Source of the DNA: a virus
DNA: 36,916 nt
Reading direction: 5' to 3' (one strand)
IMG/VR virus record: IMGVR_UViG_3300048121_001433
Location: 1-36,916 of that record
Shown: piece by piece, positions 14,496 to 36,100 of the stretch
How positions within the stretch are numbered: position 1 is the first letter of the stretch
Layout of the letters: each line of letters opens with the position of its first letter
The notes under the pieces: model-generated
What the model was told of the DNA's origin: nothing
Databases searched by the model: none
What the model saw: the letters and a program-made list of their open reading frames with translations, nothing else
Program-made: the position numbers and the translations under genes

Positions 14496-15422
14496 TTATT
14501 TAAATGTTGCTGGTATCGAACCAAAATTAGTTAAACCACTACAAAATGCAAAACAATCAGTACCAATAGGTGTTGGAGTTCTTTCAAAAATTTCATCACC
14601 ACTTGGTGTATCAGTTGGAGTTGCTCCACCTAATGAGTTAGCTGTTGTTGCCATATTAAATGCATTAGAGAATGTTGTAACCGATTGGTTGTTACTAAAA
14701 AAGTTTGATGGAATTGCGGTTATTGACCTACAATTCCTAAATACTGATTCAAAGTTTACAACTTGTGTATTGTTATCAAATAATCCACTTGGTATTGATG
14801 TTAAAGTTAAACATGCATTGAATGTACCAGAAAAAGATGTTACATTTGTATTATTATCAAATAATCCACTTGGTATCGATGAAATTCCAGTACAAAATAC
14901 GAATGTATTAACAAAAGAAGTAACATTTGATGAAAAATCAAATAAACCATTTGGAATTATTGTTATTCCAGTTTGTCTAAATGTAGAGTTAAATCTAAGT
15001 ACAGTATTTAATCCTTCGTTTAAGGTTGCATTATTAGAAACATCTGATGGGATTGTTGTTAAATTAATACATCCAAAAAAGTCAATTTGTTCAAAATCAA
15101 TACCTCCCCAATCATCAACTGAACGATATAATCCTTTATATGATGAATTGTTATTCACATTAAAACCTGGACAATATCCACTAATTATAATTTGATAAGT
15201 ACCAGCAGTTGAATATGTATGGAATCTACCAGAATCAAGAGTTTGTAATATTGTAGTTGTACCACTACTATCACCCCAGTCAACAACTATATTAGGTTGT
15301 TTTCCACCAGGTGAAGTTAGGGGCAACTCAAATTGTGTATTTGCTCCTCCAGTTTGTATTGTAAATTTAAAAGGTCTCACTTGTCCTGCTTCTATTGAAA
15401 TTAAACGTCTTGCTATACTCAT
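14496..15422 (-). CDS. PKD-like domain plus BspA-type leucine-rich repeat protein, 308 aa
   Basis: Residues about 17-82 form a PKD-like Ig fold: FKFTIQTGG...FELPLTS, VVDWGDSSG (46-54) and HTYSTAGTYQIIISG (68-82), where the DWGD and HTY-AGTY motifs are diagnostic. Residues about 110-260 contain five repeats of roughly 24 residues with the core C-x-I-T-S-IPSGLFDNNTNVTSFSGTF. A further C-x-G-L-T element lies near the end (about 294-300). This is the BspA/DUF285 type of leucine-rich repeat found in adhesins of Bacteroidota, mycoplasmas and protists. No signal peptide or transmembrane anchor is visible, which fits a virion component rather than a cell-surface protein. It is read 9 nt after the 3585-residue fibre gene. 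The likely role is an adhesin-like tip or decoration that binds host or environmental ligands. That role is inferred from the domains. Confidence 0.85.
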   Translation of the reverse strand: MSIARRLISIEAGQVRPFKFTIQTGGANTQFELPLTSPGGKQPNIVVDWGDSSGTTTILQTLDSGRFHTYSTAGTYQIIISGYCPGFNVNNNSSYKGLYRSVDDWGGIDFEQIDFFGCINLTTIPSDVSNNATLNEGLNTVLRFNSTFRQTGITIIPNGLFDFSSNVTSFVNTFVFCTGISSIPSGLFDNNTNVTSFSGTFNACLTLTSIPSGLFDNNTQVVNFESVFRNCRSITAIPSNFFSNNQSVTTFSNAFNMATTANSLGGATPTDTPSGDEIFERTPTPIGTDCFAFCSGLTNFGSIPATFK

Positions 15423-15431
15423 AACTATTCA

Positions 15432-18400
15432 TTAACTTACATTGTTTGCACTTAGGAATCCATAATATGTACTCCCCCCATCATAAGTATAGAATACTAA
15501 TATATCTTTTCCATTTGCTGTTAGTGTTGGTGCTGCTCCATTAGCCCATTGTATTATACCAGGCCAACTTACAGTTGCAGTACCACCACTTCCATCTTCC
15601 AACACCAATGTAAATCCAATTGCACGAGGGCCTGTTGGTGCGTTTGAAAGAGAAATTGTTATACTACCAGTTCTATTGATTCTAAAGTTGTTACCTTCAG
15701 TTAAATCTATATTTGTTGTTCCACTTGAATTACCTATATCGTAGTAGTTTTCGTGGAATCTTGTAGAGAATGTAGCATCACTTACATCTAAATCACCAGT
15801 TACATCTAATAAATTACCATTGAATGTTAAATTAGCTTCTGCATTTGCAGTTCCATCACCTTCCATAGTAACAACTCTATCTTCTGCATCATTATCTACA
15901 TTTAATAATCCACTTGAACCAGATGTACCAGATGAGCCCGAAGAACCAGTTTCACCTGATGAACCAGAAGTTCCACTTGTACCACTCGTACCACTACTTC
16001 CAAATAAAGTACCATCTAAACCAGATGTACCAGCAGTACCAGACGAACCTGATGAACCACCCTCTCCAGTTATACCCGATGTACCCGAAGAACCAGAAGT
16101 TCCACCTGTTCCACTACTACCACTACTTCCGAATAAAGTACCATCTAAACCACTTGTACCAGATGTACCAGCCGTTCCAGATGAACCAGCCGTTGATGCA
16201 GTACCAGACGAACCCGATGAACCCGCAGTACCTCTCGTACCACTACTACCACTACTTCCAAATAAAGTACCATCTTGTCCAGAAGTACCTGATGTTCCAG
16301 CTGAACCACTTTCTCCACTCGTACCAGAAGAACCACTTATTCCACTTGTACCGCTTGAACCACTACTTCCGAATAAAGTACCATCTTGTCCAGAAGTACC
16401 TGATGAACCAGCAGTTCCACTTACACCAGATGTTCCACTTTCTCCACTCGTACCACGCGTACCAGAAGAACCAGATGAACCAAAGAAAGTTCCATCAATA
16501 CCACTTGTACCAGTTGTTCCAGAAGTACCTGATGAACCTCCAGTACCAGCAGTACCAGCGGTACCTGTTGAACCTGAAGTTCCCGAAGTACCATGTGTAC
16601 CACTACTTCCAAAGAATGTTCCATCTTGTCCAGAAGAACCTGAAGTACCAGTTGTACCCGATGTACCAGCAGTTGATGAAGTACCAGATGAGCCAGATGA
16701 ACCACCAGTACCAGTTGTTCCAGATGAACCAGCTGAACCAAAGAATGTTCCATCTTGTCCGCTTGTTCCACTCGTTCCACTTACCCCACTACTACCTGAT
16801 GTTCCAGCACCAGAAGTACCAGAAGTACCAGCCGTACCTGATGAACCGAAGAATGTTCCATCAACACCTGATGTACCAGTTGTACCACTTGTCCCACTAC
16901 TACCACTCTCACCGCTTGTACCAGATGTACCTGCTCCACTCGTACCAGAAGTACCAGCCGTACCAAAATTAGTTCCATCTAAACCAGAAGAACCTGAAGT
17001 TCCAGTTGTACCAGAAGAACCTGATGTTCCAGTTGTACCACTCGTTCCAGAAGTTCCAGCAGTACCAAAGTTAGTTCCATCTTGTCCAGATGAACCCGAA
17101 GTACCATTTGTACCATTAGCTCCATTTTCTCCATCAATACCCGATGTACCAGTTGTACCTGAAGAGCCAGCAGTACCAGATGAGCCACTACTACCGCTGG
17201 TTCCAGATGTTCCAGAAGTACCACTACTTCCAAAGAACGTTCCATCTAATCCAGTTGTTCCAGATGTACCATCACTTCCTAATCCAGAAGTACCCGATGA
17301 ACCTGCGGTTCCACTTGAACCAGATGAACCGAAGAATGTTCCATCTACACCAGAAGAACCTGAAGTTCCACTTGTACCAGACGAACCTGCCGAACCACTT
17401 GTCCCACTACTTCCGCTAGTACCATTTGTACCTGATGTACCTGATGTTCCACTACTCCCTTCAGCTGATGTACCAGAACTACCACTTGTTCCAGTTGTTC
17501 CGCTTGTTCCAGTTGTTCCAGAAGTTCCACTTGTTCCACTACTTCCCTCTGCGGATGTACCAGAAGAACCTGATGTTCCACTTGTTCCGCTTGTACCACT
17601 ACTTCCACTTGTTCCAGATGTACCTGATGTACCACTACTTCCTTCAGCAGATGTACCACTTGTTCCTGCTGAACCTGAAGTTCCAGTTGTTCCGCTTGTT
17701 CCAGAAGTACCAGCCGTTCCACTACTTCCCTCAGCTGATGTACCTGATGTACCAGTTGTACCAGAAGTACCAGCTGAACCACTTGTTCCATTAGAACCAG
17801 ATGTACCCGATGTACCTGCTGAACCACTTGTCCCACTACTACCACTCGTTCCAGATGTACCAGAAGTTCCACTACTACCACTCGTTCCATCAGAACCACT
17901 TGTTCCACTACTACCACTCGTTCCAGATGTACCAGAAGTTCCTTCAGAACCAGTTGTTCCAGAAGTTCCAGATGTACCCGATGTACCTGCTGAACCTCCA
18001 CTACCAGACGTTCCACTTGTTCCAGAAGTTCCAGTTGTTCCGCTTGTTCCAGAAGTACCACTTGTACCACTACTTCCACTTGTTCCAGATGAACCTGATG
18101 TTCCGTTTGTACCTGAAGTTCCAGATGTACCAGCCGAACCTGATGAACCTTCTGCTCCACTTGTTCCACTTGTTCCAGAAGTACCTGATGTACCATTAGT
18201 ACCTGTCGAACCAGAAGAACCAGAAGTACCCGATGAACCAGAAGTACCAGCTGAACCTGAAGAACCTTCTTGTCCACTCGTACCACTACTTCCACTACTT
18301 CCGCTTGTTCCACTACTTCCAGAAGAACCACTTGAACCAGAACTTCCGCTTGTACCACTTGTACCAGAACTTCCACTTGTTCCGCTTGTACCACTACTTC

Positions 18401-21400
18401 CACTTGAACCAGATGAACCCGATGAACCGGATGTACCTCCACTACCACTACTTCCGCTTGAACCAGATGTACCCGAAGTTCCACTACTTCCACTTATACC
18501 ACTTGAACCAGATGAACCTGATGTTCCAGAAGAACCTCCCGTACCAGATGAGCCTGAAGTTCCACTTGAACCAGATGTACCTGATGTTCCGTATTTATCA
18601 ACAATGTTTATTGTTCCAAGCATTGAACCATGAACACTACATTGGTAATATATGTTATTAGGAGCATTTTCAGGAACTCTATATTCTATTAAAGTAGAAG
18701 TACTATGAACTCCAGCTCCTGCATCATTATTTGTTGTACCAGGCACAGTTGTATTATCACCAGATTCTAATCTTAATGCAAATGGATGTGATGAACTTAC
18801 ATTTGAAACATCAAAGTAATATAATTCACCCCTTACAAGAGTTAATGATGGTTGGTTTCCACTATATCCATCTATTGTATAATTGTTTCCACCTGGTGTT
18901 CTAACAATGAACAAAGCTCCACCTTCTCTACCAGCAGTACCAGATGTACCACTCGTTCCAGACGAACCTGATGTTCCAGATGTACCAGTTGAACCTGATG
19001 TACCAGCAGTACCAGATGTACCACTACTTCCAGAAGAACCACTTGAGCCGGAAGAACCAGATGTTCCAGACGTTCCTGAAGTTCCACTACTACCACTCGT
19101 TCCACTTGTTCCAGAAGTACCCGATGAACCAGAAGTACCACTACTTCCACTTGAACCAGAAGTACCAGATGAACCTGAAGTTCCACTACTACCACTTGTT
19201 CCAGCGGTTCCACTACTACCACTTGTCCCACTACTACCACCTGTTCCACTTGAACCAGAAGTACCAGCAGTACCACTTGTTCCAGCAGTTCCACTACTAC
19301 CACTTGTACCAGCAGTTCCAGAAGTTCCACTTGAACCAGATGAACCAGCCGTTCCAGTAGTACCACTACTACCAGAAGAACCCGATGTACCACCAGTACC
19401 AGATGTACCACTTACAGCAGTTACATCTCTTTTGAAAACTTTTCCAGTTGATTCATCAATAACTAAAACTGTATCTGAACTACCAGTTTGTAATCCTACA
19501 AATTGTGTACTACCAGATGATACTAAACTACCACTTACTTCAAATCTTCCAACAAATGAACCAGTACCAGTATTTGGTAAGAAATTTTCTCCTAAGAAAT
19601 CACCAGCATTTAAAGCGAATGAAGCAGTTGCTGCATAAGATGCTGAAAGTACAGTCATCGATGCCGTTTGGTCATTTCTTACATAATCTTCAGCAGATAC
19701 AGCGTTTATAGCATAAGATGCTGAAAGAGCGTATGATGCTGAAAGTACAGTCATCGATGCCGTTTGGTCAGTTCTTACAAAGTTATCAGTATTAAAATCA
19801 CCAGCGTTTACGGCGAATGAAGCAGTTTCAGCATATGATGCTGAAAGTACAGTCATTGAAGCCGTTTGGTCATTTTGTATATAGTTATCTAAATTAGCAA
19901 TCTCAGCAAGAGATGCCGAATCGAATCCAAATAAGTTTGATGCAGTTTGAGCTAAATCAGCGTTTCTAGCATATGATGCTGATAATACTGAACCTACTAC
20001 ATCACTACCTTGTACAAATCCTGCTAATCTACCACCAGTACCAATTACTGCTTGTCCACTTGTCAATCCACTAAATGTTACTCTAACCGATGAACTATCG
20101 ATTGATTCTATTGCTTGTGGAATAATCTGTCCATTTGAACCAGTTTCATAAATTTGAACTACTGGATAATCAATAGCGAAATTGTGTTGGAATGTTACCT
20201 GAGTTACATCTGAGAATGGGAATACAGCAGTATCACCAAATTGTGTTACAGGTCTAAATTTGTTTGCATCTGCATCAAATACTAAAATATCTAAATCATC
20301 AGGTACATCTATACCAACATTTTCACCTTGGTATGAACCTACGAATGATGATGTAATTCTTGGTGAGAATATTTCATCCGTTACAGTTATCTTAGATGCA
20401 CTTACATCGTTTTGGAAGGTTACATCTCCGAAAAATGTTGAACCACTATCTATTGACCTAACTACGAATCCATCATCAGGAGTAACCGATGCGGTTACAG
20501 AACCACTAAGTATTCTACTTTGGTCTAATCCTTCAATAGCATCAGCAGGAATATTAAATAATCCCTCACCACTACCACTAAAGAATCCACTTCCAGATGG
20601 TATTTCTATATTACCAATAAAAGTAGAACCACTTGTTGGAGAAAATACCCTAAACCCTTCTATATTATCAACCGATGCACTAATACCACCACTTATGATA
20701 AGATTTAATTCTAAATCTTCTAATGCTTCTGCAGGAATATTAAATAATCCCCCACCATCACCAGTAAATAATGTACCACTAATTGGTTTATTTACGATTA
20801 AACCAGCAGTAGGGTCTACTCTTGCTTCAGCAGCACCAGATACAATTCTATCTAATTCTAAATCTTCAAGTGCATCTAATGGAATATTAAATAATCCACC
20901 ACCATCACCTTTATATAAAGATGCTGTTATTGATTGAGAAACATGTAGAGAACCACTAATTTCTACTTTAACTGAACCTGAGTTTATATTTGAATCTAAG
21001 TTTTCAACTCTAAAGAAACCTAATGGGTCAACTGATGCAGTTACCGAACCAGTAAATATTTTTGATGAATCAATTGCTAAGTTAGCAATATCAATGTTTG
21101 TAATCCCACTACCATCACCAGTAATAATACCACCAACATCTAAAGATTCAGAAATAATAACTGAACCACTAAATGATGAATCTACTGCAATTGATGAGGT
21201 TTCGTTAAATACTTTAAATTCAGTTTCCGATAAAGATGCAGTTGCTGAACCACTTGATAACTGAGTTACGTTTAGTGATAAATTAGCAATATCAATATTT
21301 GTTAAACCACTACCATCACCAGTAAATACTCCACCACCACCAACAGTTATTGAACCAGATGTTACAATTGAACCAGTGAATACTGCTCCACCAGTTGGTG

Positions 21401-24400
21401 CAGTTACTACAAATGTATCACCACTAGCAACCGATGCCGTAGCAGAACCACTTGAGATAAGAGGAGCAGCTGCTGCTTGTACATTTGTTAATTGAGAACC
21501 ATCACCAACAAAGAATGATGCACTTACAGATTCAGCAATATCAACCGAACCAGTTACTGATAAATTTTTACTTCCAGTTAAGAATCCTATTGATACACTA
21601 CCACTTACATCTAAAGATGATTTAAATTCTGAACCACTTATTGCCGTTACTACAAACGATTCTCCACTCTCAACCGATGCCGTAGCAGAACCACTAGCAA
21701 TTACAGGTGATAAATCAGCTTGTACATTTGTTAATTGAGAACCATCCCCTACAAATGAACCAGAGAATGAACCACTAATTTCATCAGCTTCTATTTTATT
21801 AGCTGTTATTTTTTCACTTACATCAAAACTACCAGTTACATCTACATCTCCTTTGAGAATGTTAGTTGTTACTTCTGGAGTTGTACCTAATACATTAAAT
21901 ACATTACCATATGATTCTGATTGTGCTGCGTAATAATATAATTGTGATGGTGCACTAGCTGATGGGGTAATCGTTAAGAAAGCTCCATTAGCACCAGGAT
22001 TTACACTACTACTAACTACATTAATAAAGTATTGAGAACCACTGTCAGAATTTGTACCATCTAAATTTTCTGAAATTTTGAAATCAAATCCAGCATTAGA
22101 ACTATCTGATAAATCAAAATAATAAGGGTTATCTTTAATAGTTTTAAATGTTGCTTTACCAACACCATCTATAAAGTACCTACTTTCTGATATTATTACT
22201 GAACGACTTGTTGGTATATTTTCTAATAAAATAGATGATGAAACTACTAAAGAACCAGTTATAGTAGTATCACCTAATATATCAACATCACCTTGAAGAG
22301 ATGAAGATGTATTTACTACAAATCCCTCATCAGGTGCAATTGATGCGGTAAAAGAACCACTAGCTATAAAACTTCGTTGAATTACATCTTCGGAAAGTGC
22401 CGATAATGGAATATCAAATAAATCTCTACCACTACCACTAAACGAACCACTAAATTCATCAGCTATAATCTTTGGAGTAGTAATTGATTCCGTTACATTT
22501 AATGTTCCATCTATTCTTAGATTATCTTCAATTCGTGAATCTAAGTATGGGAATTCATTAACAACATTAATAACAGCTGACCCAGCCATACCACCATGAT
22601 TCAAACAATAGTAGTAAAGTTGAGTTGGTGTTTCTGATGTTATTAATATACTAACTTGAGAACCTGCACTTCCAGCATCAATACTACCAGTAGTTACACT
22701 TGAAGTATATTCAGTTCCAGAAGAATGAATACCATTTAATGTTGTAGAAAATTTTAATGGGTGAGTTTCATTTGATGTATCTGATTGGTCAAATGTATAT
22801 GTACTACCACTTACTAAATATAAATCTGGATGTATTTGTCCATCTATAAAATATTTGTTACCATCATCAGTTGAACCAACAGTAACTATTTTTGTTAAAT
22901 TATCTTTTATTTGATTTGATGATGAAATAAATACACTACCACTAATAGTTACATCATCTTCAAATCTACCAGTTGAGTTTACTTCAAATCCTCTAGTCGG
23001 ATGAACCGATGCAGTTACTGAACCACTTACAATTCTAAATGCTTCATCTGTAATTGCTGAACGAGGTATATTAAATAAAGATTCACCACTACCACTAAAA
23101 ATAGATGCAGATACAGTTCCACTTACATCAATATCACCATCAAAAGATGCTGATGTATTTACAACAAACCCTAAGTTTGGAGAAATAGATGCCGTTGCTG
23201 AACCACTTGATATTCTTGGAGAATCTTCAGAAAGTGCAGATTGTGGAATATCAAATAAATTAGCACCACTACCACTAAATGATGAACTAACATCAAGTTG
23301 TACATTTCCACTTACAAATAAAGAGCCACTAAATATTGAACCACTTTCAACAGATTTTACTACAAATCCAAAGTTTGGAGAAACTGATGCGGTTACTGAA
23401 CCACTTGATATTAATGGTGCATCCTCTGAAAGTGCTGATTGTGGAATATTAAATAATCCACTACCATCCCCAACAAATCCACTGGAACTTATAAATTTAC
23501 TTGATGTTAAATTACCAAATATAGAAGTATCACCAAATAATGTTTGTTTATCACTTCCAGTATTATCACCAAATATATTTGAACCAGAAGAATAAATTAT
23601 TGATGATGAAATAAAATCAGTAAATATTTCGTTAGCTGTAATTCTACCAACAACAGTTAAATCATTATCAATTGTTAAATCACCTTGTATAGAAGCTGAT
23701 GTATTTACTACAAATCCTAAGTTAGGTGAAATAGATGCGGTTGCTGAACCACTAGCAATTCTAACAGCATCTTCAGAAAGTGCTGATTGAGGGATATTAT
23801 TTAAATCCGAACCATCACCACTAAATGAACCACTAAATGAACCAGTAATTTCATCAGCTATAATTTTTGGAACATCTAATGTTTCTGTTATAGAAACACT
23901 ACCACTAAATTCAGATTTTACTGAACCTGTTCCGAATACTTTAAATGTACCATCGGGTAAAACCGATGCGGTTACTGAACCAGTTGTGATTAAATTAGAA
24001 ATTAGTGCATCTTCAACTAACGCAGATTTTGGTATATCAAATAATTCCGCACCACTACCACTAAATACACTACCACTACTTAATTGAACACTACCACTAA
24101 ATATAGAACCACTATCTATTGAGGTTACTCTAAATACATTATCATCAGTTGAAGCAGTTACACTACCAGTTCCAATAAAAACTGCTTCTCTCGATACTAA
24201 CGCTTCAATTGATTCTTGTGCATCATTAGAAAGTGCTGAGAATGGTATATCAAATAAATCTTCACCACTACCACTATATTTTGAACCACTATTTAATTGA
24301 ACTGCACCACTAACAAATACCGAACCACTTAATTCAGTTGTTACTGAAGCCGTTGATTGTACTCTAAAGAAACCATCAGTTGAAACCGATGCGGTTACTG

Positions 24401-26189
24401 AACCAGTAGATATTAAGTTCGAAATAAGTGCATCATCCGTTAATGCAGTTCTTGGTATATTGAATAATTGTTCACCACTACCACTAAAGAATGAACCACT
24501 ACTTAAAAATACAGAACCTGTAAAAGTAGAACCACTTAATTCTGATTCTACAACTAATCCAAAGTTTGGAGAAACTGATGCGGTTACTGAACCACTTCTA
24601 ATATTATTTGTAATAAGTGCATCTTCAGTAAGTGCTGATTTTGGTATATCAAATAACTCTGCACCACTACCACTAAATATACTACCACTACTTAATCTTA
24701 AACTACCACTAAATGTTGAACCACTAGCTTCGGATTTTACAACAAATCCATCAGCATCAGAAACCGATGCAGTTACACTACCAGTTGCTAATAAACCAGC
24801 TTCAAAAGCAAGAACTGCTTCAACAGCGTCTTGAGCATCATCTGAAAGTGCTGCTAATGGTACATTAAATAATTTTTCACCACTACCAGAAATAAATGAA
24901 CCACTACTTAAAAATATTGAACCTGTAAATGTAGAACCACTATCTAATGAGTTTACTACAAAACCAGTATCAGGTGATACGGAAGCAGTTACTGAACCAC
25001 TAATAATTAAATTCGTTTCTAATGCATCTTCGGTAAGTGCTGAACGAGGAATATCGAAAAGATTAGCACCACTACCACTAAATATACTACCACTATTAAG
25101 TTGAACTGCTCCACTTACAAATATTGAACCACTAAATTCAGATTTTACTGAACCAGTTGATTCTACCTTAAAAACTCCAGATGGGTCTAAAGATGCGGTT
25201 ACTGAACCTGTTACGATTCTTGATGAATCAAATGCATCATCGGTAAGTGCAGTTCTTGGAATGTTAAAAAGATTTTCACCACTACCACTAAATGAAGAAC
25301 CACTATTTAATTCTATATTTCCACTAACTAAAAGTGAACCACTTAATTCAGTTGTTACTGAACTACTACCAAATACTCTAAAGAATCCAGAATCATCAAC
25401 AGATGCACTTACTGAACCAGTTGCTATGATTGGAGTAACTAATGCATCAGGTGCTAGTGCTGATTTTGGAATGTTAAATAATCCCTCACCACTACCACTA
25501 AAGAATGAACCACTATTTAATTCAATAGTTCCACTTGCGAATGTAGAACCACTTAATTCAGTTATTCCTACTATTATAGTATCTGATAAAGATGATGTTC
25601 CTTCTACACTAAATCCTCCAGTAACATTTGTATCACCATTTATTTCTAATGAACCAGTAATTCCAACTGAACCTGTAAATTCTTGCTTATCAGTAAGTTC
25701 ATCACCAAAGATATTTGAACCAGATGAAAAAATAACTGAAGAGGAAATAATTTCTACAATTAATTCTCTAGCTACAATACGATTATCAACAATTAAATCA
25801 CCAGTAACTCTTACATCACCATCTACATCTACATCACCATCAAATGATGATGATACATTTACTAAGAATCCAGTATTTGGTGAAATTGATGCTGATGCAG
25901 AACCTGATAATAATCTTACTGCTTCTGGAAGGTTATTTAATTCAGAACCATCTCCACTAAATGAACCACTAAATGAACCAGTAACTTGCTCTAATTGAAG
26001 TGTTGTAACAAATAAACGATTACCATCAGCATCAGAAGCAACAAGAGCAATAGAACCAGAAGAAAGTGAACCACTCTCAGGTACACCTAAGTTTGGTTCA
26101 GCCTCATTCAGCCTTAGATATTCATATCTATTCTCCGATACATCGGAGGGCCTTATTACTTTAACCTTTCCGCTTAATAATTGGCTCAT
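15432..26189 (-). CDS. Giant fibre protein with fibre repeats, cupredoxin-like domains and long collagen-like shaft
   Basis: This protein has 3585 residues. After an N-terminal segment (MSQLLSGKVKVIRPSDVSEN...LRLNEAEP), residues about 70-1890 hold about 20 repeats of 40-60 residues with the core SGSGE-LFNIP-SAL-EDA...GSVTASV. Inserted in this part are a cupredoxin-like domain (about 1113-1212) and a degenerate relative (about 1335-1434). Residues about 1975-2050 form a beta domain (VTQVTFQHNFAIDYPVVQIYE). Residues about 2080-2200 contain DQTASMTVLSASYA repeats. Gly-X-Y tracts cover about 2262-2418 and 2532-3430, separated by a second intact cupredoxin-like domain (about 2423-2531). The C-terminal 155 residues form a beta domain (NFRINRTGSITISLSNAPTG...ILVFYTYDGGSTYYGFLSANNVS) typical of phage fibre ends. 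No S74 chaperone is present. It is likely a trimeric long fibre. The start has only a weak ribosome site. Confidence 0.93.
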   Translation of the reverse strand: MSQLLSGKVKVIRPSDVSENRYEYLRLNEAEPNLGVPESGSLSSGSIALVASDADGNRLFVTTLQLEQVTGSFSGSFSGDGSELNNLPEAVRLLSGSASASISPNTGFLVNVSSSFDGDVDVDGDVRVTGDLIVDNRIVARELIVEIISSSVIFSSGSNIFGDELTDKQEFTGSVGITGSLEINGDTNVTGGFSVEGTSSLSDTIIVGITELSGSTFASGTIELNSGSFFSGSGEGLFNIPKSALAPDALVTPIIATGSVSASVDDSGFFRVFGSSSVTTELSGSLLVSGNIELNSGSSFSGSGENLFNIPRTALTDDAFDSSRIVTGSVTASLDPSGVFKVESTGSVKSEFSGSIFVSGAVQLNSGSIFSGSGANLFDIPRSALTEDALETNLIISGSVTASVSPDTGFVVNSLDSGSTFTGSIFLSSGSFISGSGEKLFNVPLAALSDDAQDAVEAVLAFEAGLLATGSVTASVSDADGFVVKSEASGSTFSGSLRLSSGSIFSGSGAELFDIPKSALTEDALITNNIRSGSVTASVSPNFGLVVESELSGSTFTGSVFLSSGSFFSGSGEQLFNIPRTALTDDALISNLISTGSVTASVSTDGFFRVQSTASVTTELSGSVFVSGAVQLNSGSKYSGSGEDLFDIPFSALSNDAQESIEALVSREAVFIGTGSVTASTDDNVFRVTSIDSGSIFSGSVQLSSGSVFSGSGAELFDIPKSALVEDALISNLITTGSVTASVLPDGTFKVFGTGSVKSEFSGSVSITETLDVPKIIADEITGSFSGSFSGDGSDLNNIPQSALSEDAVRIASGSATASISPNLGFVVNTSASIQGDLTIDNDLTVVGRITANEIFTDFISSSIIYSSGSNIFGDNTGSDKQTLFGDTSIFGNLTSSKFISSSGFVGDGSGLFNIPQSALSEDAPLISSGSVTASVSPNFGFVVKSVESGSIFSGSLFVSGNVQLDVSSSFSGSGANLFDIPQSALSEDSPRISSGSATASISPNLGFVVNTSASFDGDIDVSGTVSASIFSGSGESLFNIPRSAITDEAFRIVSGSVTASVHPTRGFEVNSTGRFEDDVTISGSVFISSSNQIKDNLTKIVTVGSTDDGNKYFIDGQIHPDLYLVSGSTYTFDQSDTSNETHPLKFSTTLNGIHSSGTEYTSSVTTGSIDAGSAGSQVSILITSETPTQLYYYCLNHGGMAGSAVINVVNEFPYLDSRIEDNLRIDGTLNVTESITTPKIIADEFSGSFSGSGRDLFDIPLSALSEDVIQRSFIASGSFTASIAPDEGFVVNTSSSLQGDVDILGDTTITGSLVVSSSILLENIPTSRSVIISESRYFIDGVGKATFKTIKDNPYYFDLSDSSNAGFDFKISENLDGTNSDSGSQYFINVVSSSVNPGANGAFLTITPSASAPSQLYYYAAQSESYGNVFNVLGTTPEVTTNILKGDVDVTGSFDVSEKITANKIEADEISGSFSGSFVGDGSQLTNVQADLSPVIASGSATASVESGESFVVTAISGSEFKSSLDVSGSVSIGFLTGSKNLSVTGSVDIAESVSASFFVGDGSQLTNVQAAAAPLISSGSATASVASGDTFVVTAPTGGAVFTGSIVTSGSITVGGGGVFTGDGSGLTNIDIANLSLNVTQLSSGSATASLSETEFKVFNETSSIAVDSSFSGSVIISESLDVGGIITGDGSGITNIDIANLAIDSSKIFTGSVTASVDPLGFFRVENLDSNINSGSVKVEISGSLHVSQSITASLYKGDGGGLFNIPLDALEDLELDRIVSGAAEARVDPTAGLIVNKPISGTLFTGDGGGLFNIPAEALEDLELNLIISGGISASVDNIEGFRVFSPTSGSTFIGNIEIPSGSGFFSGSGEGLFNIPADAIEGLDQSRILSGSVTASVTPDDGFVVRSIDSGSTFFGDVTFQNDVSASKITVTDEIFSPRITSSFVGSYQGENVGIDVPDDLDILVFDADANKFRPVTQFGDTAVFPFSDVTQVTFQHNFAIDYPVVQIYETGSNGQIIPQAIESIDSSSVRVTFSGLTSGQAVIGTGGRLAGFVQGSDVVGSVLSASYARNADLAQTASNLFGFDSASLAEIANLDNYIQNDQTASMTVLSASYAETASFAVNAGDFNTDNFVRTDQTASMTVLSASYALSASYAINAVSAEDYVRNDQTASMTVLSASYAATASFALNAGDFLGENFLPNTGTGSFVGRFEVSGSLVSSGSTQFVGLQTGSSDTVLVIDESTGKVFKRDVTAVSGTSGTGGTSGSSGSSGTTGTAGSSGSSGTSGTAGTSGSSGTAGTSGTAGTSGSSGTGGSSGTSGSSGTAGTSGSSGTSGSSGTSGSSGSSGTSGSSGTSGTSGTSGSSGTSGTSGTSGSSGSSGSSGSSGTSGTAGTSGSTGTSGTSGSSGTSGTSGTAGREGGALFIVRTPGGNNYTIDGYSGNQPSLTLVRGELYYFDVSNVSSSHPFALRLESGDNTTVPGTTNNDAGAGVHSTSTLIEYRVPENAPNNIYYQCSVHGSMLGTINIVDKYGTSGTSGSSGTSGSSGTGGSSGTSGSSGSSGISGSSGTSGTSGSSGSSGSGGTSGSSGSSGSSGSSGTSGTSGSSGTSGTSGSSGSSGSSGSSGTSGSSGSSGTSGQEGSSGSAGTSGSSGTSGSSGSTGTNGTSGTSGTSGTSGAEGSSGSAGTSGTSGTNGTSGSSGTSGSSGTSGTSGTSGTTGTSGTSGTSGSGGSAGTSGTSGTSGTTGSEGTSGTSGTSGSSGTSGSDGTSGSSGTSGTSGTSGSSGTSGSAGTSGTSGSNGTSGSAGTSGTTGTSGTSAEGSSGTAGTSGTSGTTGTSGSAGTSGTSAEGSSGTSGTSGTSGSSGTSGTSGTSGSSGTSAEGSSGTSGTSGTTGTSGTTGTSGSSGTSAEGSSGTSGTSGTNGTSGSSGTSGSAGSSGTSGTSGSSGVDGTFFGSSGSSGTAGSSGTSGLGSDGTSGTTGLDGTFFGSSGTSGTSGTSGSSGSSGTAGSSGTTGTSGIDGENGANGTNGTSGSSGQDGTNFGTAGTSGTSGTTGTSGSSGTTGTSGSSGLDGTNFGTAGTSGTSGAGTSGTSGESGSSGTSGTTGTSGVDGTFFGSSGTAGTSGTSGAGTSGSSGVSGTSGTSGQDGTFFGSAGSSGTTGTGGSSGSSGTSSTAGTSGTTGTSGSSGQDGTFFGSSGTHGTSGTSGSTGTAGTAGTGGSSGTSGTTGTSGIDGTFFGSSGSSGTRGTSGESGTSGVSGTAGSSGTSGQDGTLFGSSGSSGTSGISGSSGTSGESGSAGTSGTSGQDGTLFGSSGSSGTRGTAGSSGSSGTASTAGSSGTAGTSGTSGLDGTLFGSSGSSGTGGTSGSSGTSGITGEGGSSGSSGTAGTSGLDGTLFGSSGTSGTSGTSGSSGETGSSGSSGTSGSSGLLNVDNDAEDRVVTMEGDGTANAEANLTFNGNLLDVTGDLDVSDATFSTRFHENYYDIGNSSGTTNIDLTEGNNFRINRTGSITISLSNAPTGPRAIGFTLVLEDGSGGTATVSWPGIIQWANGAAPTLTANGKDILVFYTYDGGSTYYGFLSANNVS
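15905..18596 (-). repeat. Long Gly-X-Y tract with regular breaks in the 3585-aa fibre
   Basis: About 900 codons of Gly-X-Y triplets with X and Y nearly always Ser, Thr or Ala. Twelve breaks of the type DGTFFG, DGTLFG or DGTNFG lie between about 16009 and 17345, roughly 100-170 nt apart. Four GTSAEG breaks lie upstream in reading order (about 17455-17745). These breaks change the glycine spacing from 3 to 4 or 5. Confidence 0.9.
18597..18923 (-). other. Cupredoxin-like domain with complete type-1 copper ligand set (second intact copy)
   Basis: Residues about 2423-2531 of the 3585-residue fibre. The Greek-key pattern of short beta strands includes LTLVRGELYYFDVS, SSHPFALRL (His2468) and IYYQCSVHGSMLG (Cys2517, His2520, Met2523). 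The His ... Cys-x2-His-x2-Met set matches the type-1 copper site of amicyanin-like cupredoxins. The domain is placed between two collagen-like tracts. Confidence 0.8.
18924..19410 (-). repeat. Shorter Gly-X-Y tract in the 3585-aa fibre
   Basis: About 155 codons of Gly-X-Y, again Ser/Thr/Ala rich, follow the segment VFKRDVTAVSG. The tract ends at GREGGALF, where a cupredoxin-like domain begins. Confidence 0.88.
19639..19872 (-). repeat. Three DQTASMTVLSASYA direct repeats
   Basis: The plus-strand stretches 19639-19674 and 19735-19770 are identical over 36 nt, and 19837-19872 is a close third copy. They encode DQTASMTVLSASYA followed by ASFA-type heptad-like Ala repeats. The spacing is 96-102 nt (32-34 residues). 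Confidence 0.85.
21888..22187 (-). other. Degenerate cupredoxin-like domain lacking the copper ligands
   Basis: Residues about 1335-1434 of the 3585-residue fibre align with the domain at 22554-22853 (RYFIDGVGKATFKTIKDNPYYF; SQLYYYAAQSESYGNVFNV). The Cys, His and Met positions are Ala1421, Ser1424 and Tyr1427, and the upstream His is replaced by a hydrophobic residue. The fold is probably kept without metal. Confidence 0.7.
22554..22853 (-). other. Cupredoxin-like domain with complete type-1 copper ligand set (first copy)
   Basis: Residues about 1113-1212 of the 3585-residue fibre. The elements are YFIDGQIHPDLYLVSGSTYTF, NETHPLKFS (His1143), and LYYYCLNHGGMAGSAVINV (Cys1195, His1198, Met1201). 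Fold and ligands match a type-1 copper site. It is embedded among LFNIP fibre repeats. Confidence 0.8.
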
Positions 26190-27116: not shown

Positions 27117-30100
27117 TTAATCCTGCAGTGCTAATGAGAATGGTGTTACAAGTGAGAATAACGATTTAGAGAATGTTCTACCCTCTAATGTACCAGAAGC
27201 TTGTTTAATAACAAGACCTCCACCAATTCTAAAGTCACCAAGTTCGTTACCAGAAGTAAAGAATACTCTACCTCCACCAATTTCAGTAATTTCCTTATCA
27301 GGATCAGGTACACCATCACCACCTTGGTTAGGAGGTAATGCTTTATAAGTTACACCAGCACCAGCGTAAGAGAAATCATGTCCAGTTGTAATAATTAAAG
27401 AACCAAACTCTTCAACAGGCGCTTGTCTAGCAGCGAATTGGAATTGAGTTCTTAAATATCTATTAGTTTCTGCAGTTTCTTTCTTTTGTTCGTTAATAAC
27501 AACAGCTGCACTTCCATACACTCCATTGTAATACGATTCAGCCGCTCTGATACTTCTCTCATTACCACCATAGATGATATCAGTTGCGATAGCATCTAAA
27601 ATAAATCCAGTATCTCTATAACATTTTTCTTCATTGTAATCAAAAGTAGGGAATGCCGCATTTGTGTACGATATTGCCTTACCTTGTAATACTTTTTTCT
27701 CCGCTCTAAGTGCATTAGCTCCATTTTTATTTAATAAGAATGGGAATACTAATTGTTGTTGTTTGATTATCTTTTCAGCCAACCCTTTTGAGAAATCAAT
27801 ACCATCAGTTGTTTGTGGTTTTTGTTCCGTAGTTGCGATTGAAGGAATATAGTAGTAGAATGTACCTGCTTGTACTGCTCTAGCATTACCACCATATGTT
27901 AAATCAGTTGCTACTGCATCTATGATGTATCCTAAATCTCTACTACAACTAACTTCGTTGTATTCAAACTCACTCCAAGACGAACTTAGATAAGCGATTG
28001 TTTCTTTTTGTATAAATGTTGTGTTATCTCTTAATAACTGAACACCATTTTTAATTTCAGCTGATGGATTTATGTATTCTAAGTTTTGAACTACATTTTG
28101 TGAAGTTCCATTAGCAAATCTAATTCCATCAATTGTTGGGTCTAACTGATTAGCTTCTGATGGAGTACCACCCTTAGTTGCTCTTGATGGGTATCTCCAA
28201 TAGTATAATCCAGCTACTCTACTTCTTTCATTTCCACCGTAAACTAAATCAGTTACAGCTGCATCAATTATATATCCAGTATCTCTTCTACATTTATCTT
28301 CGTTGTAAGTTACATTACTCCAAGAAGATGATATAAATTCGATAGTTTCATTTTGTACGAAACTTCTATTGTTTCTTAGTAATTCAGCCGATGCAGATAC
28401 TTCAGATGTTGGTGAAACGAATATTGTATTTTCTAATACTTTTTCAGCCAATCTAGCAGAGTAGTTAATTCCATCAATTGTTTGATTTAATTGTCCGTTT
28501 GGATTAGTTTGGTAATTAACAGTTGCATCTGATGGGTATAAGTAATAGTACTCACCATTTACTCTACCTCTTTCATTTCCACCATATAAGAAATCCGTTG
28601 CTACACCATTTAAGATATATCCAGTATCTCTCTTACATTTATCTTCATTGTAATCAAATGTACTCCAAGAAGATGAGATGTAAGCGATTACTTCATTCTG
28701 AATAAATTCTTTATTATCTAAAAGAACTTTATTTCCAGCTAATCTCTCAGCCGATGCCGTTACGAATATTTCGTTTTGTACTAATTTACTTGCCACATCA
28801 CCCGCGTACTTAATACCCGTTGTAGTTGGTTCTAATTGAGTTGATGTTGCTGATGAAGGATATTTGTAGTAGTATTCTCCTGCAATCTTACTTCTTTGGT
28901 TACCACCATAAAGTAAATCAGTAGATACTGCATCTAAAATATGTCCAACATCTCTCATACAAGTTGCTTCTACATAATCAAACCCTTCCCAAGAAGAACT
29001 TAGGTAAGAAATTGATTCAGATTGAATAAACTCTCTATTATTTCTAATTAATTCAACTGATGCTGATATTTGAGCTGATGGGAAATCAAATGTTACACCT
29101 TTAACGATTTGTTCAGTTAATTGTGATGCGTAATTGATACCATCAATAGTTTGTTGAGCTTGAGAACCAGTTCCATTAGCTTCAGATGGGAATTGATAGT
29201 AGAACTTAGCGTTTACTACTGATTGAGATACGATTCCATATCTTAAATCTTCTGCTACACCATTTACAATAAATCCAACATCTCTTCTACACTTAACATC
29301 ATCATAATCAAATCCTATCCACGAAGAAGAAATATATTCTACAACTTCATTTTGTATAAATGGTACACTTTCAGTAATCAATCCATATGTAGTTAGAATA
29401 TCAGAACCAGTTAATAATGAACCATATTCAAATGCAGGTTGAACAACACTTACTGAATTTTGCTCAGTTCTAACAAATGTGTGAACTGATTGTGGTAAAT
29501 GTTTAATTGCTCCATTTGATGCTGATACGAATGTGTGAACTGATTGAGGTAGATGTTTTACAGCGTTTGTTGATGCAGATACAAATGTGTGTACCGAACC
29601 AGAAGCACTTCCACCATCTCCTACATTTATTGTAAATGTACCAGTTTGTCTTTCTAATCCATCATTTGTAGCCGATACAAATGTATGTGTGTTTGTATAT
29701 GAGGAAGAACCTATGTTTATATCAAACGTATTTGTAGTTACATTAGAAATTTCTAACCATCTTCCATTTGGATAATCTATTCCAGCTCTTGGATATGATT
29801 TTTCAACAGTATCACCATCCAATACACAAGTATAAGTTAGAGAATTATTATCTAATTTGATATAATCACCATTACTAAAATTATGATTAGCTATTGTTAT
29901 AGTAACATCACCAGTTGATGCGTTATAAGGAGCATCAGTTACAGTATGTGATGTAGTTCCAACTGAAGTAATAACTATTGATTGTTCAGCGTATGGGTCA
30001 GAACCACTTCTTGGATAAGAATGAACAGATGTATCACCATCTTGGTCACAAGTAAATGCGAATGATTCATTTTCTAATACTACACTTCTACCAACACCTA

Positions 30101-33100
30101 TACCATGCTGTCCAACAGTTACAATCATATCACCACTTAATGCGTTGTAATCAACATCCGATGGTGTAAAGAATTTATTTGGACCCGAAATACCAACATT
30201 TACAGTCATTGTAGTATCAGTAATATCCGTTATCTTCATTGAACGTCCAGCGAATGGGTCAATACCAACTCTTGGATATGATTTAACTGATTGATTATTA
30301 TCCATATCACAAGTGAAAGCAAATGATTCAATATCTAAAATGATACCTTCACCAATACTTAAACTATGACTTTCAACAGTCATTACGAATTCACCCGTTG
30401 CTGGGTCATAAGATGCAGTTGTTGGATTAAATTCTACATTAGGTCCAGACGCTCCTACGTTAACAGTTATAGTATTATTGGTTTTTGAAAGAATTTCTAA
30501 TTCATTATTGTAAGCAGGTTGTCCAACTGAAGGTAATTTATCTTCAGTTTTGTTGTTATCCATATCACAAGTAAATGTGAACGATTCAGGTGATAAGTAT
30601 ATACCCTCACCCTCAGTATAAGAATGACTTTCAATTGTTAATACAAACTCACCATTTGATGGGTCATAAGTTGCGTTAGTTGGAGTTGAATCTGCTTTTC
30701 CATTAGCTATTGCATCTGATACAATTGCGAATGAAGATGAAATTGTGTTAAAAATAGTAACATCAGTTATACTACTACCAGTTGCTGGTGAGAATGAAGT
30801 TACTTTAATTCCATTATCAGTATTCAAACTTCCTGTTTGAACAAATAATGTTTCTTTGTTAACTAATTTTTCAATTAAATCTTTAGTATAGATTAATGCA
30901 TCAGTAGTTTCATCTAATTGATTACCAGTTGCTTCAGATGGGAATCTATAATAGAATTCACCAGCAGTTAATGCTCTTTGGTTTCCACCATATCTTAAAT
31001 CAGTAGCAACAGCATCAATTATGAATCCAGTATCTCTACTACAACTTAATTCATTGTATTCAAAGTTTGGATATTTAGCGTTTACGAATGCTACAGTTTC
31101 AGCTTGTAAGAATTCTCTATTTTCTCTAATTGTATCATAAACAAATTCAACTTCATTTGATGCAGTTTGGAAAACAGCTCCACTTACTATTTCAGTTACT
31201 ATATTTTGTACATAATCAATAGCAGTTACAGTTGGGTCTTTTTGTCTATTTTCATTTGGTACACCACCACTAATAGCTGCTGATGGGAATCTGTAATAAT
31301 AATCTCCAGCATTCACACTTCTTTCATTTCCACCATATAATAAATCAGTAGAAACTGCATCTATAATATGAGTAATATCTCTTTTACAAGTTATTTCATT
31401 ATAAGTAAATCCATCCCACGAAGATGATAAGAATTCAATTGTTTCATTTTGAATAAATTCTCTATTATTTCTAATCAATTCATAAGAACCACTAACTACT
31501 GCGGATGCAGTTTGGAACGTATATCCTCTTACAATACTTTCTGCTAATCTACCAGCATAATTAATACCATCTAAAGTTTGTTGTAATTGTGCACCTTGTG
31601 CCTGAGATGGGAAATCATAGTAGAATTTACCATTGAATATAGATGCAGAATTTGCGTTATACAACATATCTTCAGCTGCCCCACTTATAATTCCTCCTAT
31701 ATCTCTACTACACTTACTTTCATCATATGATGCAGTTGACCAAGAAGATGATAAATAAGCAATTGATTCACTTTGAATAAATCCAATATTTTCTTTTAAT
31801 AAGTTATATGCTGCAATTGTTGTTGGTGATTCTGATGGAGCTCCATACTCAACAACAGTTGGTAATGAACCAGTTCCATTTTTAACAATATTAGTTACAA
31901 TTGCAATTGATGATGAAATTAATCTTTGTTGTAATCTATCTCCAAATGATTCAGATGTAAATTGAACTGCGTCAGTAACTTTAATTAAGTTATCAACATC
32001 AGAGTTATTTTTAACAACGTTTGGTTTAACACCCAATCCATTTTGTAATATATTTTCAATTATACCAACTGATGTATTTACTTTATTAATTTCAATTGAT
32101 GAACCTACAATAGAAGAAGTAAACTGATTTGCTGAAGTTACTTTAATATTGTTTTCAGCATTAGTTACTAATTTTGGTAAAATACTTATTGAGTTATTTT
32201 CAGTTCTAACAAAAGTATGACCTGCCTGAGGTAAATGTTTAACTGCTCCTTTAGATGCAGATACAAATGTATGTAATGATTGAGGTTCATGTTTAACAGC
32301 GTTTGCTGAAGCTGATACGAATGTATGTAATGAACCTGAAGCGCTTCCACCATCACCTACATTTATTGTAAATGTACCAGTTTGTCTCTCAATACCATTT
32401 GCTGCAGCTGATATAAATTTGTGTTCTCCTATATATGATGATGCACCAATATTAATATTAAATGTATTCGTAGTTACATTAGAAATTTCTAGCCATCTTC
32501 CAGATGGGTAATCATAACCAGGTCTTGGATATGATTTAGTAGTTGTATTATCATCTAATACACAAGTATAAGTTAATGCGTTATCAGCAACTTTAACATA
32601 ATCACCATTACTAAATCCGTGATTGGCGATTGTTAGTGTTACTACACCTGTTACTGAGTTGTATGGAGCGTTTGTTGGAGTATGCGATGTTGTACCTACC
32701 GAAGTAATCACAATTGATTGTTCAGCGTATGGGTCAGAACCACTTCTTGGATAAGAGTGAGTTGTAGCATCTCCATCTTGGTCACAAGTGAACGCAAAAG
32801 ATTCATTTTCTAATACTACACTTCTTCCTACTCCTAAACCAAATGATTCAGTAACAGTTAGAGTCATATCACCACTTAAAGCATCATATGATGCAGTAGT
32901 TGGTGTAAAGTATTTATTAGGACCTGATATACCTACATTTACCGTCATTGTATTTGAAGTTACCGAAGTAAGTTTCATTGAACGTCCAGCGAATGGGTCA
33001 ATTCCAAATCTAGGATAAGATTTAGTTGATTGGTTGTTATCCATATCACAAGTAAATGCAAATGAACCAGTACTTAATACTATACCTTCTCCAACACTTA

Positions 33101-36100
33101 ATGTGTGAGTTCCAGTTGTAATTACGAAATCACCATTAGCAGGGTCATAAGTTGCATTAGTTGGAGTCCATTCAATATCAGGATCCGATGCTCCTACATT
33201 TACAGTTATAGTATCAGTAGTTTTTGCTGTTATCTCTAATTTATTAGTATAAGCAGGTTGTCCAACTGAAGGTAATTTGTGTTCAGTTCTGTTCCCATCC
33301 ATCGTACAAGTAAATGTAAACGATTCTGGTCTTATATAAATTTCATCTCCAATATCCAAAGTATGATTTGGAATAGTAACTACAAAGTTTCCATTTGATG
33401 GGTCATAAGTTGCTGTTGTTGGAGTAAATGAACCTGTACCATTTTCTATGATATTAATAATTTCTCCAAATGATGAACTTACAATACCAAATTCAGTATC
33501 AGTTACATAAGTACCACTAGCAGTTACATAAGAACCAGTTGTTAGTTGTTGTGGAGTATCTAATGTATCATCAAACCACTTAGCTAATGCAAATGGTGTA
33601 TCATCGGTTCCGAATCTAATAATATCATTAATAAACCCTACACTACGAGTTACAAATGCTGATTCAACTTCACTACCACTTAGTGAAGAAGTAAATTGAG
33701 ATGTATCATTAATTTTAATTAATCCTTCAATATTTTCAGTTAATATAGGTAAAGTACTTACTGAATCTCGTTGAGTTCTAATAAATGTATGAGCTGATTG
33801 AGGTAAATGTTTCAATGCCCCATTGGAAGCTGATACAAAAGTATGAACTGATTGAGGTTCATGTTTAACTGCTCTATTGGATGCTGATACGAATGTATGT
33901 AATGAACCAGAAGCACTTCCACCATCTCCTACATTAATTGTAAACGTTCCATCTTGTCTCTTCAATCCATTAGTAGTTGCTGATACAAATGTATGTGAAC
34001 CTACATATGGTGAAGAACCTATATTGATATCAAATGTGTTAGTTGTTACATTTGAAATTTCTAACCATCTTCCACTTGGATAATCGTAATTAGGTCTTGG
34101 GTAAGATTTTGTAGTTATATTTTTATCTAATACACAAGTATAAGTTAGAGAATTATCATCTAATTTTATGTAATCTCCATTATTGAAATTGTGGTTAGCT
34201 ATTGTAATAGTTACATCACCAGTTGCAGAATCATATGGTGCATCGGTTACACTATGAGAAGTAGTTCCAACTGAAGTGATTTTTATTGATTGCTCAGCGT
34301 ATGGGTCAGAACCACTTCTTGGATAAGAATGAGTAGTTACGTTACTATCCATATCACAAGTGAATGCAAATGATTCGTTTTCTAACACCACACTTCTACC
34401 AACACCCAATCCGAATGATTCAGTAACAGTTAGAGTCATATCTCCACTTAGAGAATTGTAAGAAGCAGATACAGGTGTGAAATATTTATTCGGACCTGAT
34501 ACTCCTACATTAAATGTCATTGTAGTATCAGTTACAGCCGTAAGAGGAAGTGAACGTACTGAATACGGGTCAATACCAACTCTTGGGTAGGATTTAACTG
34601 ATTGGTCGTTATCCATATCACAAGTAAATGCGAATGATTCAGGTGACATTACTACACCTTCACCAATACTTAAACTATGACTTGCTACAGTTACAACAAA
34701 TTCCCCAGTTGCTGGGTCATAAGATGCAGTTGATGGATTGTATTCTACATTTGGACCCGATTTACCAACGTTTACAGTTATAGTATCTGATGTTGTTGAT
34801 TTAATTGTTAATCTATTATCATAAGCAGGTTGTCCAATTGATGGAAGTTTGTGCTCAGTTCTATTTCCATCCATATCACAAGTGAATACAAATGATTCAG
34901 GTTTTAGATAGATACTATCACCACTATGTAAATTATGTTTAGGTACAGTCATTAAGAAATCACCATTAGCAGGGTCATAAGTTGCTGTTTTAGGTGTGAA
35001 TGATTCAATACCTGTTTTTATAATTCCAGTTACAATATCATATGATTCACTAACTTCAGTTTGATATGAACCACTCAATGCAATTGATGAAGATACTGAA
35101 TTAAATGATGTTACTTTTATATTTCCATCACTATTAGAAACTTTAGATGGAGTTTTAGTTATTAATTGAGATAAAACACTTATTGAGTTATTTTGAGTTC
35201 TAACAAAAGTATGACCTGCCTGAGGTAGGTGTTTTACTGCTCCATTAGAAGCTGATACAAAAGTATGAACTGATTGTGGTAAATGTTTTACAGCGTTTAT
35301 TGATGCTGATACAAATGTATGTATTGAGCCACTTGCACTTCCACCATCTCCAACGTTTATTGTAAATGTTCCAGTTTGTCTTTCTAAACCATTTGTTGTA
35401 GCTGATACAAAAGTATGAGCTGATGTGTAAGATGATGAACCAATGTTAATATCGAAAGTATTAGTTGTTACATTAGAAATTTCTAACCATCTTCCAGATG
35501 GGTAATCATAACCAGGTCTTGGATATGATTTCTCAACACTATTACCATCTAATATACAAGTATAGGTTAGAGAATTATCAGAAAGTTTGATATAATCTCC
35601 ATTACTAAATCCATGTCCTGTGATTGTTATAGTAACATCACCAGTAGATGCATCATAAGGTGCATTAGTTATAGTATGGGATGTAGTTCCAACTGAATTT
35701 ATTACAATTGATTGTTCCGCATATGGGTCTGAACCTAATCTTGGGTAAGAGTGAACAGATGTATCACCATCTTGGTCACAAGTGAAAGCAAAAGATTCGT
35801 TTTCTAATACTACACTTCTTCCTACTCCTAATCCGTGCTGTCCAACAGTTACAACCATATCACCACTCAATGCGTTGTAATCAACATCAGTTGGTGTAAA
35901 TAATTTATTCGGAGCCGATACTCCAACATTAACAGTCATTGTTGTATCAGTAACATCAGTTATAATCATTGAACGACCTGCAAATGGGTCTATTCCAAAT
36001 CGAGGGTAAGATTTAACAGATTGGTTATTGTCCATATCACAAGTGAATGCAAATGAACCAGTATCTAATACGATACCCTCACCAATACTTAAACTATGAT

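Follow-up and report, generated by a model that had tools for sequence, protein, structure and literature searches.

Predicted cupredoxin-fold domains with type-1 copper ligand residues in a giant tail fibre and other virion proteins of marine phages

Three copies of one domain in a giant tail fibre

Can a phage tail fibre carry a type-1 copper site, and what would the metal do there? The question is raised by a 36,916-base virus record (IMGVR_UViG_3300048121_001433), which was analysed as a whole and is referred to here as the window. One of its genes encodes a protein of 3585 aa (15432..26189, minus strand; open reading frame and translation) that contains three copies of a predicted cupredoxin domain. 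The protein had been taken for a phage fibre, which is supported by its matches to PHROG tail-fibre families (best E 1.5e-93) and by its tail-gene neighbourhood, which includes a tail sheath gene. Collagen-like repeats occupy its C-terminal third (Pfam Collagen, E 5.9e-99) and were the sole family recognised in a Pfam scan of the fibre, which revealed no enzyme domain or other copper centre. Equivalent open frames are present in other viral contigs, with 3585 aa in G047, G049 and G052, 3551 in G050 and 3720 in G051.

The original prediction assigned cupredoxin strands and a full type-1 ligand set to residues 1113-1212, which indeed correspond to 22853..22554 on the minus strand. A beta-sandwich was modelled as anticipated, but its first strand comprises residues 1098-1107, so that a start at 1113 is ∼15 residues too late. 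Based on the AlphaFold2 model and its Foldseek and VIA matches, domain 1 spans residues 1098-1212 (22554..22898, minus strand). All four ligands were found at the expected places on this strand: His1143 (22761..22763), which is invariant in an alignment of 74 rows, Cys1195 (22605..22607), one of only two Cys in the whole protein, and, as read from the translation, His1198 (22596..22598) and the predicted axial ligand Met1201 (22587..22589). We take CTPHPFM to be the metal loop of amicyanin. The Cys-x2-His-x2-Met spacing of this loop, which is named in the title of PDB entry 2fta as a replacement for that of azurin, is present in domain 1 as had been noted.

The domain is also rightly called the first, since two further copies follow. 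Domain 2 (residues 1333-1432; 21894..22193, minus strand) is homologous to domain 1 with E 3.3e-11 and has lost the ligands, with Phe, Ala, Ser and Tyr in the four places. Domain 3 (residues 2428-2535; 18585..18908, minus strand; E 1.8e-7 to domain 1) lies within the collagen-like repeats and retains all of them, as His2468, Cys2517, His2520 and Met2523.

In a fibre this long and repetitive, the motif might have arisen by chance. However, the composition of the protein (2 Cys, 12 His and 7 Met in 3585 residues) predicts ∼1.3e-5 C-x2-H-x2-M motifs, compared with the two observed, and both Cys (1195 and 2517) sit in these motifs. The conservation of the ligands in 129 of 133 non-redundant copies and in a blind set, described below, refutes a chance origin, to which we assign a negligible probability.

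Predicted fold and sequence relationships

Residues 1097-1218 were modelled with AlphaFold2 using the 74-row alignment of natural relatives as input, which yielded a beta-sandwich with a mean pLDDT of 93.9 and a pTM of 0.86. The anticipated cupredoxin fold was borne out by comparison with solved copper proteins. Among the 50 matches listed by Foldseek against the PDB, 43 were copper proteins (best E 2.6e-4), namely three-domain nitrite reductase (the best match), multicopper oxidases, rusticyanin, AcoP and pseudoazurin; the other seven rows were SO1698 (four rows), PAD2, coagulation factor V and Izumo1. With VIA, all 50 matches listed were copper proteins. The best of these was 2dv6 (rmsd 3.4 over 101 residues) with a Z of 9.0, where values of 8 to 9 are modest and, by the tool's own warning, those under 8 may mean just a common arrangement.

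Domain 2, modelled separately, reached a pLDDT of 77.7. Copper proteins accounted for 47 of the 50 Foldseek rows listed for it, with a best E of 2.1e-3 and thus none passing E 0.001, and rusticyanin was the best VIA match (Z 8.7). Since this copy without ligands is also predicted to be a cupredoxin, the fold assignment is independent of the ligand letters. The likeness to amicyanin that had been proposed is seen in the loop spacing, but the best fold matches of domain 1 were the N-terminal part of three-domain copper nitrite reductases, multicopper oxidases and rusticyanin. Amicyanin was not among the 50 rows listed for domain 1 by either Foldseek or VIA, and it was listed for domain 2 (2idq, 2gb2, 3ie9 and 3ply). 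From the model and the residues in the ligand places, we infer that domain 1 is a cupredoxin-fold domain with complete type-1 copper ligand residues, with predicted copper binding and predicted site geometry.

The domain thus shares its predicted fold and the His ... Cys-x2-His-x2-Met order with the type-1 copper proteins plastocyanin, amicyanin and azurin (PF00127). Unlike these small secreted electron carriers, it is part of virion proteins. It also differs from plastocyanin in the residue after the first His, which is Pro as in the copper oxidase 6vox, whereas the plastocyanins compared have Asn, and in a loop that is two residues shorter. In the best fold matches of domain 1, the N-terminal domain of three-domain copper nitrite reductase (2dv6, 6tfo and 6tfd) and multicopper oxidase domains, a cupredoxin is likewise one bead in a longer chain and, as in 6vox, His-Pro is found at ligand 1. 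In contrast to those enzymes, the Pfam scan recognised neither an enzyme domain nor another copper centre in the fibre.

A profile of the family matched a set of 30 host cupredoxins with a score of 32.3 (P 3.1e-5), compared with a maximum of 21.9 for 100 column shuffles and 8.9 for the reversed profile. Ligands 1, 2 and 3 were in register with those of plastocyanins, and the Met was left unaligned because the plastocyanin loop is two residues longer. Big_2, intended as an outside control family, had no match in the four genomes searched; an unrelated repeat of the window was used in its stead and gave P 0.48. When the ligands were masked, the score against plastocyanin dropped to 14.7 (P 0.077), with the 95% level of the shuffles at 14.0. 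The sequence link to plastocyanin therefore consists of the ligand pattern alone, and descent from a phage or host plastocyanin is unsupported, as the profile match vanishes with the masking. The plastocyanin gene petE is tabulated in cyanophages in an earlier study (PMC3037559) and is thus also a phage-borne cupredoxin, but it is a separate small gene serving host photosynthesis, whereas the fibre domain is encoded inside genes for virion proteins and no longer resembles plastocyanin when its ligands are masked.

Domain 1 of the window had no Pfam match at E up to 1 and is thus not filed under PF00127 (Copper-bind), for which the gathering cut-off is 21.2 bits. The same family was matched at E up to 1 by 27 of the 74 relatives (best 1.8e-5). 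Ten other single domains, nine from isolated phages and one being the third copy of the window, gave two matches, both below the cut-off. One bacterial relative (L244) passed it with 24.1 bits, and another (L248) fell on either side of it, with 24 bits and 20.7 bits in two scans. Three sequence searches against the PDB returned no convincing relative (best E 0.087, 0.89 and 0.27), with plastocyanins, a pseudoazurin and a copper oxidase appearing near E 1, and nothing relevant was matched in NCBIfam.

Distribution of the module and conservation of its ligands

The module is not peculiar to this fibre but is widespread in marine phages. A tblastn search with domain 1 matched 244 of 50,697 phage records, among them 231 named Synechococcus phage, Prochlorococcus phage or cyanophage; the remainder were Pelagibacter (4), Methylophilales (4), Marine (3) and two others. 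A query with masked ligands gave 152, and a profile scan of viral contigs gave at least 530 confirmed stretches. PHROG places the domain in families of tail fibres, of the baseplate wedge, of the gp9-type fibre connector and of virion structural proteins. In S-SM1 gp9 and the matching Syn9 connector, the C-terminus is a domain copy with all four ligands. Bacterial genome contigs contain the domain at 51 loci, for example in a Prochlorococcus single-cell open reading frame of >2500 residues. We propose that shuffling has distributed the module over many virion proteins in marine phages as well as some proteins of surface type in marine bacteria.

Some of these contexts deserve mention in their own right. 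In both S-SM1 (L318) and Syn9 (L319), the gene after the gp9-type connector encodes a baseplate wedge with two more copies, one with Cys-x2-His-x2-Met and one without. PSS2 encodes a stand-alone domain protein of 112 aa that adjoins the tape-measure gene (L278:592-930) and is without the His, Cys and His ligands. In the Flavobacteriaceae genome represented by L244, a single protein combines DUF285 repeats, an Ig-like surface domain and the domain copy that passes the PF00127 cut-off.

Mass spectrometry places at least one carrier in virions. The domain match of S-CREM2 lies in ORF130 (98589-103511), in a copy without ligands. This is the only carrier that we found with a published mass-spectrometry table, and the part of that report holding the table records the protein in purified virions with 24 unique peptides and 8.7% coverage (PMC10665884). 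The proximal long-tail-fibre protein of S-SCSM1 has a ligand-bearing copy, and its record is annotated '(virion protein)' by the depositors. For this phage, 45 virion proteins were identified by mass spectrometry, and the accessible parts of the publication do not name the fibre carrier (PMC9602691). In the S-CREM2 record, the same label is attached to two genes listed in the mass-spectrometry table and is missing from a third, unlisted one, so that '(virion protein)' probably stands for detection by mass spectrometry. The proteome of S-SM1 is also described in part of PMC3037559.

All four ligands (His and Cys-x2-His-x2-Met) are present in 129 of 133 non-redundant copies; the other four are second copies of the giant fibre and its orthologues. 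Because the patterns of the first fetch partly included Cys-x-x-His and thus depended in part on the ligands, we made a blind set with patterns located between the His and the Cys. In this set, for which the best 80 of 583 confirmed loci were kept, one of the 79 complete copies had DCHL and the other 78 had all four ligands; two more were truncated at contig ends. In the 74-row alignment, with rows 30-83% identical to domain 1, the four ligand columns are the sole invariant ones. It contains the window, 39 viral and 34 genome loci, chosen from 106 candidates plus the window, and since copies without ligands were left out, this invariance is partly due to the choice of rows.

Copies without ligands are common among isolated phages. 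In 26 such phages, which were hand-picked from the match lists (three for existing proteomes) and include some close relatives such as S-TIM5 and S-TIM66, we counted 37 distinct copies (39 rows less two duplicates). All four ligands were present in 24, one had Tyr in place of the Met and 12, one of them a partial match, were without the His and the Cys-x2-His. The Syn9 baseplate-wedge copy with CRYHRHM was below the threshold and is outside these counts. The T4-GC 345 structural proteins of Syn33 and P-SSM4, similar cyanophage proteins and the 112-residue protein of PSS2 are among those without ligands. The ligands are mostly lost as a block, with partial exceptions in HTSF, DCHL, the His-Cys-His with Tyr of S-RIM4, the DATM of PSS2 and S-PM2, in which a Cys remains in a partial match. 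As about a third of the copies from isolated phages have no ligands, the metal is not essential to the general job of the module.

Outside the domain, Cys is rare in the carriers. The 147 viral open-reading-frame pieces with the domain have 184 Cys in 73,371 residues outside it, and 90 of the pieces have none there; within the domain, 160 of 163 Cys belong to Cys-x2-His. A nearly invariant Cys could also be conserved for a disulfide or as a free reactive residue rather than for a metal site. However, each domain has a single Cys and the whole chain has two, which leaves no intrachain pair within the domain, and the two His and the Met are conserved with the Cys and lost together with it. We consider this explanation very unlikely, and the disulfide was rejected as the main reading on account of the single Cys per domain.

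The window and L030, an 82% identical relative, differ in domain 1 (22554-22889) with a dN/dS of 0.78, compared with 0.20 to 0.25 in four other stretches of the fibre. Against L031 and L033, the values for domain 1 were 0.39 and 0.57, which is not exceptional. The raised ratio against L030, where dS is low, may stem either from recombination or from rapid evolution at the surface of the domain.

Possible roles of the domain and surroundings of the fibre gene

What might the conserved residues do on a virion? With moderate confidence, we favour an outward-facing cupredoxin module that is loaded with copper after release and in which the copper serves as a structural clamp, the domain itself being an adhesive or spacer element. 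Phage fibres fold in the cytoplasm, which offers little free copper, and this makes loading after lysis likely. The fibre would be made and assembled there, and the exposed domain would pick up the metal from sea water or the host exterior after lysis. Copper could then clamp the Cys-His-Met loop onto the His-bearing strand, giving a stiff, protease-resistant adhesion or spacer domain that would need no redox chemistry. In the giant tail fibre, three copies would be strung like beads, and some lineages would have lost the metal and retained the fold. The occurrence in exposed virion proteins (tail-fibre, baseplate-wedge and connector families) counts for the clamp, and the predicted fold of domain 2, which is kept without ligands, counts for a structural role. 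On the other hand, the axial Met, which a pure clamp may not need, is conserved no less strictly than the other ligands, and about a third of the copies in isolated phages do without the metal.

The strict retention of the complete type-1 set, including a Met that a merely structural site could vary, would also be expected of a redox-active centre that senses or switches the state of the fibre or baseplate, or that hands over to a host-surface protein that is redox-active or handles copper, as a copper version of the iron Trojan-horse idea. In T4, the state of the fibres is passed to the baseplate at the gp9-type connector, and it is the S-SM1 connector of this type that ends in a ligand-bearing domain. 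For phage tails, an analogue based on iron has been put forward (PMC11705849). However, the ligand-bearing copies of the giant fibre are far apart in the chain (residues 1143 and 2468), the module occurs in many unrelated virion proteins, no partner was identified, and the 12 of 37 copies from isolated phages manage without ligands. We regard a functional redox centre as unlikely. The same holds for its broader version, a rather doubtful one, in which marine phages, especially those of picocyanobacteria, would use copper in fibres and connectors as a copper- or redox-dependent switch or docking site, with the copper-free paralogues serving as a fixed joint. The variety of contexts, the distance of over 1000 residues between the two ligand-bearing copies, the surface-type relatives in bacteria and the viability of paralogues without ligands all agree better with a structural or adhesive role than with electron transfer.

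If the fold alone mattered, the domain would be an adhesion or spacer cupredoxin in which the four residues stabilise the apo protein or bind another metal, for example zinc. The frequent copies that lack ligands and keep the predicted fold would fit this, as would the scarcity of copper where fibres fold, and a cupredoxin-like domain solved with zinc (4hcg) is among the VIA matches listed for domain 2. Nonetheless, such a role appears improbable: across the 74 aligned copies, from which rows without ligands were left out, the four ligands are the sole invariant columns, more strongly conserved than core packing residues, and Cys is otherwise rare in the carrier proteins.

Ig-like and other beta-sandwich decoration domains are known in phage structural proteins. 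They share with the phage cupredoxin a modular, shuffled and surface-exposed use in fibres and baseplates, to which the latter adds a conserved set of metal ligands. Repeated metal sites along a fibre are also known from the HxH iron sites of T4 gp37 and, as a predicted case, Alteromonas phage R22Y (sections of PMC11705849), but these hold octahedral iron between pairs of His, whereas here one site per domain, with Cys and Met, is predicted. While the cupredoxin, the beta-sandwich decoration of phages and the iron site in a fibre are each known, the conserved type-1 ligand set in virion modules is apparently new: we found no description of it, and no experiment demonstrating a clamp or adhesive role, in the open-licence PubMed Central literature, judged in part by title and the start of the abstract. 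If copper is bound by the domain, type-1 copper centres would sit on the tails of many marine phages, and a textbook metal site would gain a new setting. Attachment could then depend on copper, which would also tie phages to the chemistry of sea water, alongside the proposal made for iron. Intact copies are present in the cultured phages S-TIM5, Syn9, S-SM1, P-SSM2 and HTVC028P, which makes copper binding directly testable, and the pattern of all four or almost no ligands provides a natural control, with copper-type and copper-less paralogues even within one fibre.

The tail sheath of the window is closest to those of Microcystis phage Mel-JY01 (46.7%) and Flavobacterium phages. The photosystem gene psbA was not found in five of six related contigs searched, fragments included. 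The exception, G048 (IMGVR_UViG_3300046170_000162, locus L040), is a viral contig of 181,945 bases with three domain copies and a psbA-type gene, and given this gene it is probably a cyanophage.

The fibre gene is flanked by other large genes on the same strand. A second giant fibre of 3273 aa (3477-13298, minus strand) has collagen repeats and, at its C-terminus, an intramolecular chaperone of the Peptidase_S74 family (residues 3151-3211, E 4.9e-11). Between the two lies a gene for a 308-aa protein with leucine-rich-like repeats (14496-15422, minus strand) that matches phrog_9915, a family of unknown function (E 2.8e-22). A third giant protein of at least 3265 aa (27117-36914, minus strand) runs off the end of the window; its sole Pfam match above the cut-off is DUF3850 (24.5 bits), and it consists of repeated modules with a conserved Cys in FTCxxD.
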